Positions 45,218 through 57,256 of a stretch of 64,000 nucleotides of DNA are shown here, in pieces. This stretch comes from Fidelibacterota bacterium (GTDB taxonomy: Bacteria; Fidelibacterota; UBA8477; JABMPR01): the NCBI GenBank assembly GCA_018673925.1, contig JABHBL010000037.1, positions 33,566-97,565 on the forward strand, in the 5' to 3' direction. Below the pieces are notes generated by a model, which was not told the DNA's origin, did no database searches, and saw only the letters and a program-made list of their open reading frames with translations. The first letter of the stretch is position 1, and each line of letters starts with the position of its first letter. Made by a program: the position numbers and the translations under genes.

Positions 45218-46048
45218 ATGTCATTGACAAATATTATAAAACGCGCCCCTGTAGTCATAATTGGCATCCCTGCTCTCATCGGGATCACCCTTTATACTCA
45301 CGATATATTTATGGTATTCTTTACCATTGCAGGCTTACTCATTCTTAATGAAGTTTATCGTATGTCACGTCCAAATGGTACTGAGCCGAATGTCTGGGTC
45401 GGGTACCTCGTTTACCTTAGCCTTGTTGGGGATCAACTTTTGGGGGAGGGTAATAATCTAGGTGCCGTTTTAATTGTCTCTATTCTCATACTTCTGACCT
45501 GGGAAATGTTTCGGAAAAAACCTCATGTGATGGAAAACGTCGCCTCTTCCTTTTTTGCCGCGACTTTTGTTGCACTGGCCATGTCCTACTTTATTTCACT
45601 TCAACAATTGGGTTTTAATGGGCAGGGGGGACACCTCGGTGGATATGCGGTTTTGACCGTTTTCATTGGTGTCTGGACTTGTGATACCATGGCCTATTTT
45701 ATAGGCTCCGCGATTGGTAAACACAAAATTTTCCCACGGGTCAGCCCAAACAAAAGTTGGGAAGGATCCATTTCTGGTTTGATTGGCTCCTTGATAGCTC
45801 TCGTGCTCATCGTACGCGCGGATTGGTTACCTGGCCTGGATTACACCGATGCCTTGATACTGGGTCTGATTACCGGTGTTGCTGGTCAACTTGGTGATTT
45901 TGCTGAATCCCTGGTAAAACGTGATGTGGGTGTTAAAGATTCGTCCAACCTGCTACCTGGACACGGCGGAGCTTGGGATCGTTTCGATTCCATATTGTTT
46001 GCTGCACCACTGAGTTACTTGTATTTAACCCTAGTTGTCGGGCTATAG
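45218..46048 (+). CDS. cdsA: phosphatidate cytidylyltransferase
   Basis: CDTMAYFIGSAIGKHKIFPRVSPNKSWEGSISGLIGS; QLGDFAESLVKRDVGVKDSSNLLPGHGGAWDRFDSILFAAP. Confidence 0.97.
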   Translation: MSLTNIIKRAPVVIIGIPALIGITLYTHDIFMVFFTIAGLLILNEVYRMSRPNGTEPNVWVGYLVYLSLVGDQLLGEGNNLGAVLIVSILILLTWEMFRKKPHVMENVASSFFAATFVALAMSYFISLQQLGFNGQGGHLGGYAVLTVFIGVWTCDTMAYFIGSAIGKHKIFPRVSPNKSWEGSISGLIGSLIALVLIVRADWLPGLDYTDALILGLITGVAGQLGDFAESLVKRDVGVKDSSNLLPGHGGAWDRFDSILFAAPLSYLYLTLVVGL

Positions 46049-50363: not shown

Positions 50364-52208
50364 GTGGCTGGTAACAAACTTAAAACTATTCTGGCAACAG
50401 ATTGTGGTTCAACCACAACCAAAGCTATCCTGATCGAATTGACCGATCAGGGGTATCGCTTGAAAACAAGAGGAGAAGCTCCTACAACTGTGGAAGCCCC
50501 TTTTGAAGACGTTACCAAGGGTGTGCTCAATGCTATTATGGAAGTTGAAGAGCTTTCAGGCTTGAAGATACTGGATGGTGATCAGATAATTCACCCGATG
50601 AAAGACGACAACACTGGTGTAGACGTTTATGTGTCCACATCATCTGCTGGTGGCGGATTGCAAATGATGGTCGCCGGTGTGGTGAAGGCGATGACTGGAG
50701 AGAGTGCTGAACGAGCCGCATTGGGCGCAGGCTCCATTGTAATGGATGTGCTGGCCTCAAATGATGGTAGACTTCCTCATCAAAAAATTGAACGTATTCG
50801 TCAGCTTCGTCCAGATATGATCTTGCTGTCAGGTGGAATCGATGGCGGAACTGTTTCCCACGTTGTTGAATTAGCTGAAATCCTGGCTGCTGCCAATCCC
50901 AAGCCTCGTCTTGGACAGAATTATAAGCTTCCTGTTATCTATGCTGGTAACAATAAAGCTCAGGATAACATTGCTGAAACTTTGGGTGAGATTACTGATT
51001 TAGATTTGATTGAAAATATCCGACCTGTTTTAGAGGTTGAAAATCTGGGACCAGCTCGAGATAAGATCCATGATCTATTTATGGAGCACGTCATGGCACA
51101 GGCACCTGGGTATAAGAAATTAATGTCCTGGACAGATGCACCCATTATGCCTACACCAGGAGCTGTTGGCTCCCTGATTGAGATGGTTGCCCGCCAGGAA
51201 AATATCTCTGTTGTTGGTGTTGATATTGGTGGTGCGACTACAGATATTTTCTCAGTTTTTCAGGGACAATTCAATCGTACGGTAAGTGCGAATCTGGGAA
51301 TGAGCTACTCAGTCTGCAATGTTTTGGCTGAAGCTACTCTGGAGAATGTCTTACGTTGGGTCCCCATCGATATTGATGAAGGGACACTTACCAATCGGAT
51401 TGGTAACAAGATGATCCGACCGACCACCGTTCCTCAATCCCTGGAAGAATTAATCATTGAACAGGCCATTGCCCGTGAGGCATTAAGGCTATCTTTTATA
51501 CAGCATAAATCATTTGCTGTAAGCCTGAAAGGTGTTCAATCACAACGAACTATTTCAGATGCCTTTGATCAATCTGGTTCAGGTGAGACACTGGTTGATA
51601 TGATGGAGTTGGATTTGCTGGTTGGATCTGGTGGTGTGCTATCCCACGCCCCTCGGAGAGAGCAGGCTATGCGTATGATGATAGATGCCTTTGTCCCTGA
51701 GGGAATTACGCAACTGGCTGTTGATTCAATTTTTATGATGCCACAATTGGGTGTCATGGCCAATATCGAACAAGCTGATATGGCTGAGGATGCGCGCAAG
51801 GCCGCAGTAGAAGTATTTGAGAAGGATTGTTTGATCCGTCTGGGTACATGTATTGCTCCAGTTGGAAAACCTGCCAAATCTGGCACCGTAATTCTGACCG
51901 CAGAATTTGACCTTCCTGGTGAAGGCAAACAGGTAATCGAGTTGAAACAGGGTGAAATCATCGTGATTCCTGCTCCATATGAGCCTATTAGTGCCAAATT
52001 GACACCTTCAAAAACCATGTCCATTGGTAAAGACAAAGGTGAGTCTCATCAGACAGATATCTATGGCGGCACCGTCGGGTTAATTTTTGATGGTCGCGGA
52101 CGACCCTTTGAACTCAGCACCGAGAAATCAAAACGAATTGAAAATCTGAATAAGTGGTCCAAGGCAACCAATGAATATCCGGACACTGAATTACTGGGAG
52201 GAGCATAG
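50364..52208 (+). CDS. MutL/GlmL-like ASKHA-fold protein (glutamate mutase L family), GTG start
   Basis: LATDCGSTTTKAIL, VGVDIGGATTDIFSVFQGQFNRTVSANLGMSYSV; no mutS/mutE-like genes adjacent. Confidence 0.9.
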   Translation: MAGNKLKTILATDCGSTTTKAILIELTDQGYRLKTRGEAPTTVEAPFEDVTKGVLNAIMEVEELSGLKILDGDQIIHPMKDDNTGVDVYVSTSSAGGGLQMMVAGVVKAMTGESAERAALGAGSIVMDVLASNDGRLPHQKIERIRQLRPDMILLSGGIDGGTVSHVVELAEILAAANPKPRLGQNYKLPVIYAGNNKAQDNIAETLGEITDLDLIENIRPVLEVENLGPARDKIHDLFMEHVMAQAPGYKKLMSWTDAPIMPTPGAVGSLIEMVARQENISVVGVDIGGATTDIFSVFQGQFNRTVSANLGMSYSVCNVLAEATLENVLRWVPIDIDEGTLTNRIGNKMIRPTTVPQSLEELIIEQAIAREALRLSFIQHKSFAVSLKGVQSQRTISDAFDQSGSGETLVDMMELDLLVGSGGVLSHAPRREQAMRMMIDAFVPEGITQLAVDSIFMMPQLGVMANIEQADMAEDARKAAVEVFEKDCLIRLGTCIAPVGKPAKSGTVILTAEFDLPGEGKQVIELKQGEIIVIPAPYEPISAKLTPSKTMSIGKDKGESHQTDIYGGTVGLIFDGRGRPFELSTEKSKRIENLNKWSKATNEYPDTELLGGA

Positions 52209-52211
52209 ATC

Positions 52212-53339
52212 ATGGCCCATTCGTATACTCCCGGACTAAAAGTCCTACACGAAACCAAAGTTAGAAAAGATAGAATTTTACCCCTTAAGGGGGATGTGGT
52301 GGTTGAAGCCAAAGCTTCTGTTACCCCGGATGATATTGTTGCGCGCACGCATCTGCCAGGTAATGTGCAGATGATGAATGTGGGAAATTTATTAAACATA
52401 GATCCTACAGATGTGGAAGCAGTGATGCAAAAGCCAATTGGCTCAGAATTCGCGAAAGGTGAGCTTATTGCTGAAACCAAAGGACTTTTTGGATTTTTTA
52501 AATCCAATGTGATGGCTCCCATCGACTGTACTTTGGAATCCATTTCCTCAATTACAGGACAAGTGGTCCTTCGGGATGCACCTATACCTGTTGAGGTGGA
52601 TGCCTACATTCGCGGAGTTGTAGCTGAAGTTGTACCAGAAGAGGGTGTAATCATTGAAACAGAAGCGGTCTTTATCCAGGGTATTTTTGGAATTGGCGGT
52701 GAGAGCAGGGGAGAGCTTGTTGTAGTGACTGATGGTCGCGAGGATGAACTTACTGCAGATTTGATTAAACCTGAACATGCTGGGAAAGTACTGGTAGGTG
52801 GATCATTTATCAGTTTGCCCGCCTATAAAAAAGCTCTCAGCATGAAGGTTGCTGGTGTGGTAGTTGGTGGCTTCAATTATTTTGATCTGGAAGAGATTCT
52901 GGGTTACACACTGGGTGTGGCTATTACTGGCTCTGAGGATCTGGTTACTTCATTAGTACTCACAGAAGGTTATGGTGAGATTCGAATGGGATCCAGAACT
53001 TTTGATCTACTCAAGCGACATCATGGAAAATTCACATCTATCAACGGTGCTACCCAGATTCGAGCTGGTGTTATTCGTCCTGAAATTGTTATTCCATTGA
53101 ATCCAGATGACATCAAAGGTGATGTGCACGCCATTCAAATCAACGAGGGTATACAGGCTGGAAGCCTGGTCCGTGTTATTCGTGCACCCTACTTTGGTAG
53201 AATTGGAACCGTAGTTTCATTACCACCTGAATTACAGAAGATGGAATCTGAAACCATGGTACGAGTCGCTGAAATTAAGATCGATGATCAAGTTATGGTC
53301 ATACCACGTGCTAATCTGGAGATGGTCGAAACTGATTAA
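52212..53339 (+). CDS. conserved protein with barrel-sandwich-like segment and C-terminal KOW-like motif
   Basis: MAPIDCTLESISSITGQVVLRDAPIPVEVDAYIRGVV; C-terminal QAGSLVRVIRAPYFGRIGTVVSLPPE; 3-nt gap from the MutL-like gene. Confidence 0.7.
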   Translation: MAHSYTPGLKVLHETKVRKDRILPLKGDVVVEAKASVTPDDIVARTHLPGNVQMMNVGNLLNIDPTDVEAVMQKPIGSEFAKGELIAETKGLFGFFKSNVMAPIDCTLESISSITGQVVLRDAPIPVEVDAYIRGVVAEVVPEEGVIIETEAVFIQGIFGIGGESRGELVVVTDGREDELTADLIKPEHAGKVLVGGSFISLPAYKKALSMKVAGVVVGGFNYFDLEEILGYTLGVAITGSEDLVTSLVLTEGYGEIRMGSRTFDLLKRHHGKFTSINGATQIRAGVIRPEIVIPLNPDDIKGDVHAIQINEGIQAGSLVRVIRAPYFGRIGTVVSLPPELQKMESETMVRVAEIKIDDQVMVIPRANLEMVETD

Positions 53340-53349
53340 GACGAAGGAA

Positions 53350-53655
53350 GTGCCCAGCGAAACCACACAGTCAGCTGAAGACCTGGCATTCATTGAGCGC
53401 ATTGCTAAACGAATATATGATACTGGTTTTATAACACCTGCAGTCTTTGCACTGGAAATGGTTAAACCTTTAGCTTTGTTAGGTAGCCATACCATGATAT
53501 TTTTTGGACCGATAGTCAGCGCATTTATCAAAGCCGATGGGTATTATAAAGCTGCCGAGTTGTTTGAAGAACCGAGTAATGTAGAATTATTGATCTCAAG
53601 ACTTGAACAACTGGAACAAGAGCATAAAAAACAAACAAACGGAGAAGCACAGTGA
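53350..53655 (+). CDS. small conserved protein of the DUF6754 cluster (start uncertain: GTG 53350 or upstream alternative)
   Basis: AEDLAFIERIAKRIYDTGFITPAVFALEMVKPLALLGSHTMIFFGPIV; GTGA overlap with next gene. Confidence 0.65.
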   Translation: MPSETTQSAEDLAFIERIAKRIYDTGFITPAVFALEMVKPLALLGSHTMIFFGPIVSAFIKADGYYKAAELFEEPSNVELLISRLEQLEQEHKKQTNGEAQ

Positions 53656-54515
53656 AAGATAAACAATTCTGGTCTGTTGCCGGCATCATCTTCGTCCTAT
53701 TCATGATTTACTGGGTTGCAGGACATCCATATTTTGTCTCTGAACGTAGTGTCATGTTTTGGTCAATCCTTATTGTCGGAGGCGTGTTGATCTATTCGAC
53801 CCGCATGGCAAAACGAGGTGAGAAGATTTTCCTGCGTACTATCCCCGGTCTTAAAGCCGTGGAAGAAGCTGTTGGGCGTTCCACCGAAATGGGGAAACCT
53901 GTACTCTATGTTCCAGGAATTATGGATATGGATCAAGTTGAAACTGTGGCAGGAGTTGTTGTACTCGGTCATGTAGCCAAGATGACAGCGCGCTATGAAA
54001 CCAGTCTGAATGTCCCTGTTTCTCGAGCTATTGTTATGAAAGCTGCACGAGAATCTTGCCGTGAATCCTATCTATTAGAAGGTCGCCCAGACCTCTTTCA
54101 CAATGACATGGTTCACTATCTCACCGATGATCAGTTTGCCTACGCTGCTGGTGTGAACGGAATCATGCTGCGCGAAGAACCGGCGGCTTGTCTGTATATG
54201 GGTAAATTTTATGCTGAATCCTTGTTATTGGCTGAAACGGGTAACTCCATTGGAGCCATCCAGATAGCTGGGACTGCCTCACCATCACAGATTCCATTCT
54301 TTGTAACCGCTTGTGATTATACACTGATTGGTGAAGAGTTTTTTGCAGCCAGTGCTTATCTATCACAGGAACCAGAGTTGATCGGTGGAGTCAAAGGGCA
54401 GGATACTCTGAAGATAATGGCTGTCGCCGTAATGCTTCTTGCCACTCTTTTTAACTTTTTTCATGATCTGAACATGATCTCCTGGGATGTCCTGGGATTT
54501 CTGACAGTGCAATAG
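53652..54515 (+). CDS. DUF6754-like membrane protein, GTG start
   Basis: Two N-terminal TM, LRTIPGLKAVEEAVGRSTEMGKPVLYVPGIMDMDQVETVAGVVVLGHVA..., C-terminal TM. Confidence 0.75.
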   Translation: MKDKQFWSVAGIIFVLFMIYWVAGHPYFVSERSVMFWSILIVGGVLIYSTRMAKRGEKIFLRTIPGLKAVEEAVGRSTEMGKPVLYVPGIMDMDQVETVAGVVVLGHVAKMTARYETSLNVPVSRAIVMKAARESCRESYLLEGRPDLFHNDMVHYLTDDQFAYAAGVNGIMLREEPAACLYMGKFYAESLLLAETGNSIGAIQIAGTASPSQIPFFVTACDYTLIGEEFFAASAYLSQEPELIGGVKGQDTLKIMAVAVMLLATLFNFFHDLNMISWDVLGFLTVQ

Positions 54516-54525
54516 GAGGTTATCC

Positions 54526-55554
54526 ATGTTCATGAAAAGACAATTACCAATTGCTATTGCTGCAATTATTGGTTTTCTAACACTCTTTGGCTGGTTCGTT
54601 GATGAACCAAATATCAAATCATTCGTGGATGATGATGCGACGCAATGGTTTGACATTCTAGCCAGTTTCGCAATATTTTTAGGTGCATTGAACCTCTTGA
54701 AATTGCAAGCTTTGAAGATAATAAAAAAACAAAAGGGTTGGCCTTATGCAGCCCTGGCAATCGTCGGATTTACATTTTCATTCACAGCAGGCTTTATCTT
54801 GCTGGGATCATACAACGTTGAGATCAGTCAATACGATGATCCAGCCAAGGTGGCCACCGTATTGGCCAGTGAAATCAATCTTGATGAAAAAAGCGCTGAA
54901 AACATTCTAATAGCTATGCCTGAAGGGGATACCTACACCATTGATACGCCCTATTTCACAAAAAGTGGAGCTGACGATGTAGTTGAAAAGATCAACGCTG
55001 CTGGCGGAACTGCGAACATGCGGGCTACAGAATGGGGATCTCATATTTCCACACGAGGCTCACTGTTTAACTGGATGTTCAGATTTATTTTTACGCCACT
55101 TTCTGCAACTATGTTCGCGCTGCTGGCTTTCTTTGTGGCCTCGGCATCTTACCGAGCCTTCAAGATTCGCAATTTTGAAGCCACACTTCTCCTCATTTCA
55201 GGAATTATTATCATGCTAGGGCGTGTGCCTATAGGTGGCAACATTTCTTCCTGGTTCATTATGTACATTATCGTACTCAGCCTATCAGCAGGTGTCAATA
55301 CCTGGTTCAAGAATCGCAAATATACACTTGCCAGTGTGATTGGTGGGATCCTTATCGTGACGATTGCCGGAATGATTACGGGGTGGCCTGTGGATCAACC
55401 AGCTATCTTTTATCTTCCAGTGCTTCAGGATTGGATTTATAACGTGCCCAATGTAGCAGGCGCCCGTGCCATCATGATTGGTATTGGTCTTGGAATATTC
55501 GCAACTTCAATACGCTATATCCTGGGTATTGAAAAATCATATATCGGAGAATGA
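54526..55554 (+). CDS. polytopic membrane protein with internal soluble domain
   Basis: About seven TM; insert DPAKVATVLASEINLDEKSAENILIAMPEGDTYTIDTPYFTKSGADDVVEKINAAGGTANM; RBS aggagg at 54513-54518. Confidence 0.7.
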   Translation: MFMKRQLPIAIAAIIGFLTLFGWFVDEPNIKSFVDDDATQWFDILASFAIFLGALNLLKLQALKIIKKQKGWPYAALAIVGFTFSFTAGFILLGSYNVEISQYDDPAKVATVLASEINLDEKSAENILIAMPEGDTYTIDTPYFTKSGADDVVEKINAAGGTANMRATEWGSHISTRGSLFNWMFRFIFTPLSATMFALLAFFVASASYRAFKIRNFEATLLLISGIIIMLGRVPIGGNISSWFIMYIIVLSLSAGVNTWFKNRKYTLASVIGGILIVTIAGMITGWPVDQPAIFYLPVLQDWIYNVPNVAGARAIMIGIGLGIFATSIRYILGIEKSYIGE

Positions 55555-56402
55555 TCATGGAAAAATTCTTAGATTTTATCGTTCGTGCCGGTAGCCTTGA
55601 TAGACGCTATATCTTTGTGGTGATTGCCCTGGTGGTAATGTTACCTCTTTTCTTCCCACTGAATCTACCTATTCGACCAACGGTATCCTCTCAAACTATT
55701 TATGATACGGTTGAGAAGTTGGAATCAGGAGACAAGGCACTCGTATCATTTGAATATGGTCCTAGCACTAAACCTGAAATTCATCCCATGGCAATTGCCT
55801 TGCTCAGACACCTATTTGAGAAGGATGTGAAAGTTTACATCACCTGTCTGTGGCCAGATGGTCAATTCATGGCCATGGAAGCAATACAGCAAGTGGCAGT
55901 AAATCAGTACCAAAAAGTTTATGGTGAAGACTATGTACTTTTGGGTTTTCGCCCTGGGAATGAGGCTGTTATCAAAGGTCTCGTTAGTAATTTTCGGAAA
56001 GTCTATACTGTAGATGCTCAAGGAAATTTTCTTGATGACATTCCCATGATGAATGGAATTAACAAGGTTGCTGATTTTGACTACCTCTTTTCTGCTTCTG
56101 CAGGTTATCCAGGAACGGTGGAGTGGGTACAGTATGCTGCGGATCCAACTGGAGTTACCATGGGAACCGGGACGACTTCAATTCAAGTGAATGAAGTTAT
56201 GCCTTATGTCCAGGCTGGTCAAATCAAAGGAATTCTAGGTGGGATGCCTGGAGCTGCAGAGTATGAAAAGCTCATTGGACAGCCAGGGATTGGAACCAGT
56301 GGTATGGATGCACAATCCGTTGCGCACATTGTCATCGTTGGGTTCATCATTTTCGGAAACATCTCGTTCTTTGTTGAACGCAGACGTTCCAAGAAATATT
56401 AG
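55551..56402 (+). CDS. membrane protein with large soluble domain between N- and C-terminal TM helices
   Basis: N-terminal TM, TIYDTVEKLESGDKALVSFEYGPSTKPEIHPMAIALLRHLFEKDVKVYI, C-terminal TM AHIVIVGFIIFGNISFFVERRRSKKY. Confidence 0.7.
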   Translation: MIMEKFLDFIVRAGSLDRRYIFVVIALVVMLPLFFPLNLPIRPTVSSQTIYDTVEKLESGDKALVSFEYGPSTKPEIHPMAIALLRHLFEKDVKVYITCLWPDGQFMAMEAIQQVAVNQYQKVYGEDYVLLGFRPGNEAVIKGLVSNFRKVYTVDAQGNFLDDIPMMNGINKVADFDYLFSASAGYPGTVEWVQYAADPTGVTMGTGTTSIQVNEVMPYVQAGQIKGILGGMPGAAEYEKLIGQPGIGTSGMDAQSVAHIVIVGFIIFGNISFFVERRRSKKY

Positions 56403-56413
56403 GAGGTTGAATA

Positions 56414-57256
56414 ATGAACGGTTCTGAAATTTTTGGAGCGTGGGTCGCTGTTTTTCTGACCCTGGGCATATTCTCCTACTTATATAAAGATAATCCCTTT
56501 TACAAAATAGCTGAACATGTATTTGTAGGTGTTTCTGCAGGTTACTGGATGTCCATGTTTTTCTGGACACAGATCCAACCAAATCTGTTCGGCCGACTTT
56601 GGCCAGTGCCTGAAGGCGCCATTTCTGGTTTTTTCATGCGCACCTGGTACGGTATTTATAATTTTTTTGGCGTCCTTTTACCAAGCGTATTTCCAGATGG
56701 AGGTATCGATAAGGGACACGGGACCCATCCGCACTTCATTTATATCATCCCTTTTATTTTAGGAGTGATGATGCTTTTGAGTGTGGTCTCTAAATGGAGC
56801 TGGTTTGCCCGATTAGGTATTGCCTATACTGTTGGAATGGCTGCGGGTCTTAGAGCTTATGCATTTTTAAATTCAAATGTACTGGTCCAGCTAAAGGGAT
56901 CTGCGGTTTCATTCGTTGGATTGGACTGGTTCAGTCTTACAGATGCCAGTATTATCAACAACGTGATCATTTTGATAGGTACAATCACGGGTTTGCTATA
57001 TTTCTACTTCTCAAAGGAGCATAAAGGCACTTTTGGGAAAGTAACCCGAGTTGGAATTTATTTTCTCATGATCAGCTTTGGAGCTTCATTTGGTTTTGCT
57101 GTCATGGGCCGTATCTCACTCTTGATTGGTCGATTTACAGATCTCATTACCTATGGTAGCTCAACTTATAACTATGCGTCACTCTGGGTACTTCTGCTGA
57201 TGATTGGCTTGTTGGCCGTATGGACCTTTAAAGGTGATAAGAAGGTGGCAAGCTAA
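56414..57256 (+). CDS. polytopic membrane protein of the DUF6754 cluster
   Basis: Multi-TM; VFLTLGIFSYLYKDNPFYKIAEHVFVGVSAGYWM; aggagg RBS immediately after previous stop. Confidence 0.7.
   Translation: MNGSEIFGAWVAVFLTLGIFSYLYKDNPFYKIAEHVFVGVSAGYWMSMFFWTQIQPNLFGRLWPVPEGAISGFFMRTWYGIYNFFGVLLPSVFPDGGIDKGHGTHPHFIYIIPFILGVMMLLSVVSKWSWFARLGIAYTVGMAAGLRAYAFLNSNVLVQLKGSAVSFVGLDWFSLTDASIINNVIILIGTITGLLYFYFSKEHKGTFGKVTRVGIYFLMISFGASFGFAVMGRISLLIGRFTDLITYGSSTYNYASLWVLLLMIGLLAVWTFKGDKKVAS

Follow-up and report, generated by a model that had tools for sequence, protein, structure and literature searches.

A conserved gene cluster pairing a MutL-family ATPase with DUF6754 membrane proteins in Fidelibacterota and other phyla resembles a cell-envelope machine

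A cluster of seven genes (A to G), found in a 64,000-nucleotide stretch of DNA (hereafter the window) from a Fidelibacterota (Neomarinimicrobiota) genome of 3.4 Mb and 90% completeness, looks like a widespread cell-envelope machine, apparently without earlier description in the open-licence literature. The gene products are proposed to belong to one cell-envelope system, in which a soluble A-B ATPase unit activates or drives a membrane complex of D, E, F, and G, a reading to which we give about an even chance. It is based on gene conservation, A-B fusion, co-occurrence and the copy-number pattern, and the folds and membrane topology within it are predicted. The cluster is regarded as novel because no described counterpart came up in Pfam, NCBIfam or PADLOC, in searches of the PDB by sequence and by fold, or in the open-licence literature, in which no paper describing the cluster or naming DUF6754 was found. 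In PADLOC-DB, which models known anti-phage defence systems, 0 families were reached at E<=0.01 by A, B, and D-G of the window together with two Zixibacteria homologues.

The seven open reading frames occupy positions 50364-57256 on the plus strand, spaced by 3 to 11 nt or overlapping, and the tight seven-gene run that had been predicted was thus recovered in full. The first gene, A (50364..52208; 614 aa), encodes a MutL-family ASKHA ATPase and is followed after 3 nt by B (52212..53339), which encodes a soluble barrel-sandwich hybrid/KOW-like protein, named from the domain matches of its homologues. Gene C (53284..53655), recognized by its homologues and conserved patterns, encodes a small protein of about 100 aa; its true start lies somewhere from 53284 to about 53332, and it overlaps the 3' end of B and, by 4 nt, the DUF6754 membrane protein gene D (53652..54515). 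After 10 nt comes E (54526..55554), assigned as a multi-span membrane protein from its homologues beside D and a topology count, and E overlaps by 4 nt the gene of a two-span membrane protein with a predicted Rossmann-like domain, F (55551..56402). The last gene, G (56414..57256), begins 11 nt further on and encodes another multi-span membrane protein. The family assignments of A and D in the original prediction were borne out by Pfam matches to PF13941 (406.3 bits) and PF20539 (374.9 bits), respectively, each against a cut-off of 27, while C, E, F, and G reached no Pfam family over cut-off. The descriptions of the single genes stood in that all seven are present, and had to be corrected in that the membrane proteins E and F belong to no Pfam family.

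Conservation within the phylum was assessed in 20 stretches around DUF6754 from other Fidelibacterota genomes, which were searched with profiles derived from the seven genes of the window. All seven genes were found in 18 of them (in L043 with G cut by the contig end), and the remaining two (L044, L047) hold five genes each, with a contig edge inside the cluster. The cluster is therefore not a chance arrangement, and the view of it as a conserved unit is upheld here and by its recurrence in other phyla. In three of the 20 stretches (L035, L038, L045), and also in L048 and others, A and B are fused into one reading frame. Among 149 genomes of the phylum, DUF6754 exceeded its cut-off in 91 and MutL in 96; A and D occurred together in 91 genomes, A alone in 5, D alone in 0 and neither in 53 (Fisher p 5e-35). 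Ten listed genomes, only 0.8-1.0 Mb in size (family f7), retain the cluster, which suggests that it is important to the cell.

Beyond the phylum, a scan of GTDB species genomes turned up DUF6754 relatives in at least 576 stretches, of which the best 80 were kept; these come from Planctomycetota including Phycisphaerae, Zixibacteria, Eisenbacteria, and Fidelibacterota, with single records labelled Acidobacteria and Verrucomicrobia. In the resulting set of 101 stretches (L028-L127 and the window, including the best 80 of at least 576), the strand orders were CABDEFG in 39, ABCDEFG in 14 and ABDEFG in 12; partial forms were also seen, many of which are truncated where a contig ends. Six or seven of the genes recur in records of Planctomycetota, Zixibacteria, and Acidobacteriota. 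Only B-D were found together in L070 and L072, and in the former, from Thalassoglobus, A is distant from B-D and E-F-G do not adjoin D. In samples labelled by the phylum of the centre-genome record, with kinship within the samples not given, DUF6754 was present in 99/99 genomes for Zixibacteria, 49/199 for Planctomycetota and 3/149 for Acidobacteriota. MutL was found in 16 of 20 Planctomycetota genomes with DUF6754 versus 1 of 20 without it; three of the four DUF6754-bearing genomes without a MutL match are also without B. A distant second pair of MutL and barrel-sandwich proteins, with no D-E-F-G in the fetched stretch, was seen in four further stretches, fused at L130:6949-9822 and L132:4785-7409 and adjacent at L131:7391-10332 and L133:2001-5017.

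The A and D trees are broadly consistent with each other: the window lineage groups with Zixibacteria, and the Fidelibacterota form with fused A and B falls among Planctomycetota, a grouping that is firmer in the A tree, the D tree having several weak branches. This pattern would suit a movement of the gene set between phyla, with ancient duplication as the alternative.

The copy-number pattern is most evident in Zixibacteria, where D-E-F-G occur as tandem repeats (L099, L104, L117, L118 and others). In the 23 Zixibacteria genomes checked, D is present in 2 to 6 copies and A in one copy throughout (split over two contig ends in G375), and B is single in 22 and absent from G155, counts that may be blurred by incomplete assemblies. 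Group II ECF transporters are shared-engine membrane systems, and the cluster is like them in that one soluble ATPase unit apparently serves several membrane cassettes; the ATPase superfamily differs from that of A and the membrane proteins are unrelated, so the likeness is an analogy only.

In an alignment of 26 A sequences (mean column identity 69%), the ATP motifs DCGSTTTK and DIGGATTD and the segment SGGVLSHAP are invariant, and A extends at its C-terminus by about 140 aa past the GlmL-like part. B is assigned an N-terminal barrel-sandwich hybrid of the Biotin_lipoyl/RnfC_N-like type and a C-terminal KOW-like motif. Of 46 members at E<=0.1, 36 match Biotin_lipoyl, 22 RnfC_N (best 6.7e-07, the window copy not among them), 17 KOW, and 8 NQRA_N; the window B matches only KOW among these domains, and weakly. 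The likeness to RnfC and NqrA that these homologues suggest is confined to the N-terminal barrel-sandwich domain. In Pfam, none of the seven window proteins matched a family of further Rnf or Nqr subunits or a flavin- or iron-sulphur-binding family.

Homologues of C were detected in 62 of the 101 stretches (E<=0.01; the set including the best 80 of at least 576) and carry the conserved patterns RPLNxxGSQ...FxP and FLExRGS. Near C, a small protein with weak matches to bacterial PH domains was observed in 27 of the 101 stretches from several phyla (L050:3335-3865, L058:4466-4906, L121:4429-5154, and 24 other stretches); the one copy checked, that of L050, has two hydrophobic helices. This protein may be a candidate eighth gene, which the window is without.

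The topology of D-G was predicted by simple hydropathy and a charge count. D is a clear member of DUF6754, a family with no described function. Its AlphaFold2 model (mean pLDDT 90.0) appears Rossmann-like, as judged from its alternation of helices with strands and the helices that flank them, and its conserved domain is predicted to be cytoplasmic from the positive charges after its helix. The earlier description of D as a DUF6754 membrane protein was confirmed and can be extended: in many relatives the N-terminus of D bears a signal-like segment together with an fn3-like domain, an ectodomain that is absent in the window copy (fn3 was reached by 12 of 63 relatives at E<=0.01). For F, the model (mean pLDDT 94.9) likewise appears Rossmann-like by the same features, and the charges predict an extracytoplasmic domain. 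Neither model matched a solved structure in Foldseek at E<=0.001. The D and F models have the same order of helices and strands, which is offered as no more than a hint; in profile comparisons, neither D with F nor E with G showed significant sequence homology.

The remaining membrane proteins, E and G, have no Pfam counterpart. Homologues of E adjoin D in nearly all loci; six helices are counted for the family average and eight for the window copy, with an enlarged loop between helices 3 and 4 that is predicted to be extracytoplasmic. In one Zixibacteria cassette (L099:13716-15491), FG-GAP repeats are inserted in this loop. In the E homologue at L105:4594-5853 this predicted outside loop carries an FHA-like domain, and an FHA domain outside the cell would be unusual. 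Homologues of G were found across loci L028-L127, with a conserved DNPxYKxAE motif just after the first helix, in which D26, N27, Y30, and E34 are invariant. Sequence searches against solved structures gave nothing convincing for A, B, D, E, F, or G; a Na,K-ATPase match to D (0.052) and an antiporter match to E (0.19) were taken as chance.

In the proposed envelope system, A and B would form a soluble cytoplasmic ATPase unit, and D, E, F, and G would assemble into an inner-membrane complex, with the conserved domain of D at the cytoplasmic face and the F domain and the variable ectodomains of D and E outside. A would bind and hydrolyse ATP, B would relay this to the membrane complex, most likely via D, and the complex would change state so that its outside part binds, moves or processes a ligand; in genomes with several D-E-F-G cassettes, a single A-B unit would serve all of them. 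Complex formation, the direction of energy flow and ligand handling are here what we infer. A physical role of A in energising or assembling the membrane proteins, as had been suggested, would fit the A-B fusions, the count of one A to several cassettes and the predicted topology. More tentatively, and with a probability clearly below even, the system may be an envelope machine of a new, ATP-powered class, in which a single ASKHA ATPase with a barrel-sandwich partner works from the cytoplasmic side on several interchangeable four-subunit membrane cassettes, and the Rossmann-like domains of D (inner) and F (outer) lie opposite one another on the two sides of the membrane. The proposed envelope system is further favoured by the invariant ATP motifs of A, the tandem D-E-F-G cassettes, the opposite predicted membrane sides of the D and F domains, the FG-GAP repeats in the large E loop of one cassette and the retention in small genomes. 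Several observations count against it: the four DUF6754-bearing Planctomycetota without MutL, the scattered genes of L070, the A-B look-alike pairs with no D-E-F-G nearby, and the fact that no conserved acidic residues were seen within helices to mark an ion path.

A rather unlikely alternative is that A-B is a reactivase comparable to EutA or diol dehydratase reactivase, which would use ATP to repair or swap the cofactor of an enzyme made up of D-E-F-G; the membrane complex would then be a catalyst and not a transporter. The relatives of A characterised within its ASKHA group have enzymes as their targets, A also matches Hydantoinase_A and, weakly, EutA in Pfam, and a reactivase with one A for several targets would fit the copy numbers. 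Rossmann folds bind ligands at the C-terminal ends of their strands, and in F the conserved residues are enriched just past these ends, to a level reached in 1 of 202 circular shifts; invariant charged residues also run all through the D domain. Against this reading, no cofactor motif or known enzyme family was found in D, E, F, or G, and the same strand-end test in D was indistinguishable from circular shifts (46 of 180), since conservation extends over the whole domain.

It is improbable that A serves as an actin-like scaffold on which the membrane proteins are positioned or assembled, with ATP setting assembly and not doing work. PilM and FtsA share the ASKHA superfamily with A, and one A common to several cassettes would suit such a role, but A has no PilM or FtsA family match and D-G match no pilus or division families. 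There is likewise little probability that the genes are simply co-expressed under a shared condition without forming a single complex; A-B pairs without D-E-F-G beside them and the missing E-F-G next to B-D in L070 and L072 speak for this reading, whereas the very tight co-occurrence of A and D in the 149 genomes, the broadly similar A and D trees, and the overlapping genes in the window argue against it.

The original prediction also held that the mutase-L annotation is misleading in this cluster, and this was supported. A scored below the cut-offs of all of the NCBIfam models GlmL (NF040745, 219.6 bits versus 475), Or-4, and glmL_fam, with 157.3 bits against 204.05 for TIGR01319. GlmE (PF06368) was over cut-off in 0 of the 149 Fidelibacterota genomes, that of the window giving a single 19-bit match below the 26.6 cut-off, and in 2 of 44 genomes of other phyla, selected because they carry both DUF6754 and MutL. 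These GlmE figures run counter to a MutL that mostly co-occurs with glutamate mutase. Both exceptions are Zixibacteria (G363, G368), in which GlmE and MutL are on separate contigs or some 190 kb apart; each genome has a single MutL, the one near DUF6754, which might also serve the mutase. An Rfam scan of the window showed no cobalamin riboswitch. The mutase name is, from the sequence evidence, misleading for A in this cluster, since GlmE is over cut-off in none of the 149 Fidelibacterota genomes and A falls under the GlmL cut-off. A shares with GlmL/MutL the Pfam family and the ASKHA ATP motifs, and differs from it by the sub-cut-off scores, the C-terminal extension, and the membrane-protein neighbours. 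That A is an ordinary accessory protein of glutamate mutase, as its strong match to the Pfam MutL domain might suggest, is exceedingly improbable in view of the NCBIfam scores and the GlmE count.

Genes of lipid metabolism were observed in the surroundings of the cluster. A CdsA-type cytidylyltransferase lies upstream of it in 20 stretches (window copy 45218-46048, a Pfam match), and PlsX/FabH-type genes, named by eye, lie near it in about a dozen Phycisphaerae loci (e.g., L116, L120, L126). They hint at lipid contexts and may be housekeeping neighbours.

If the envelope-system reading is right, a machine present in all 99 sampled Zixibacteria genomes and in most or many of those in other phyla has been without a name because its best-known part bears a misleading annotation, and the ASKHA ATPase fold would gain a new use. 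Cultured Planctomycetota (Thalassoglobus and Gimesia-like) carry at least part of the cluster and are concrete targets for its study.
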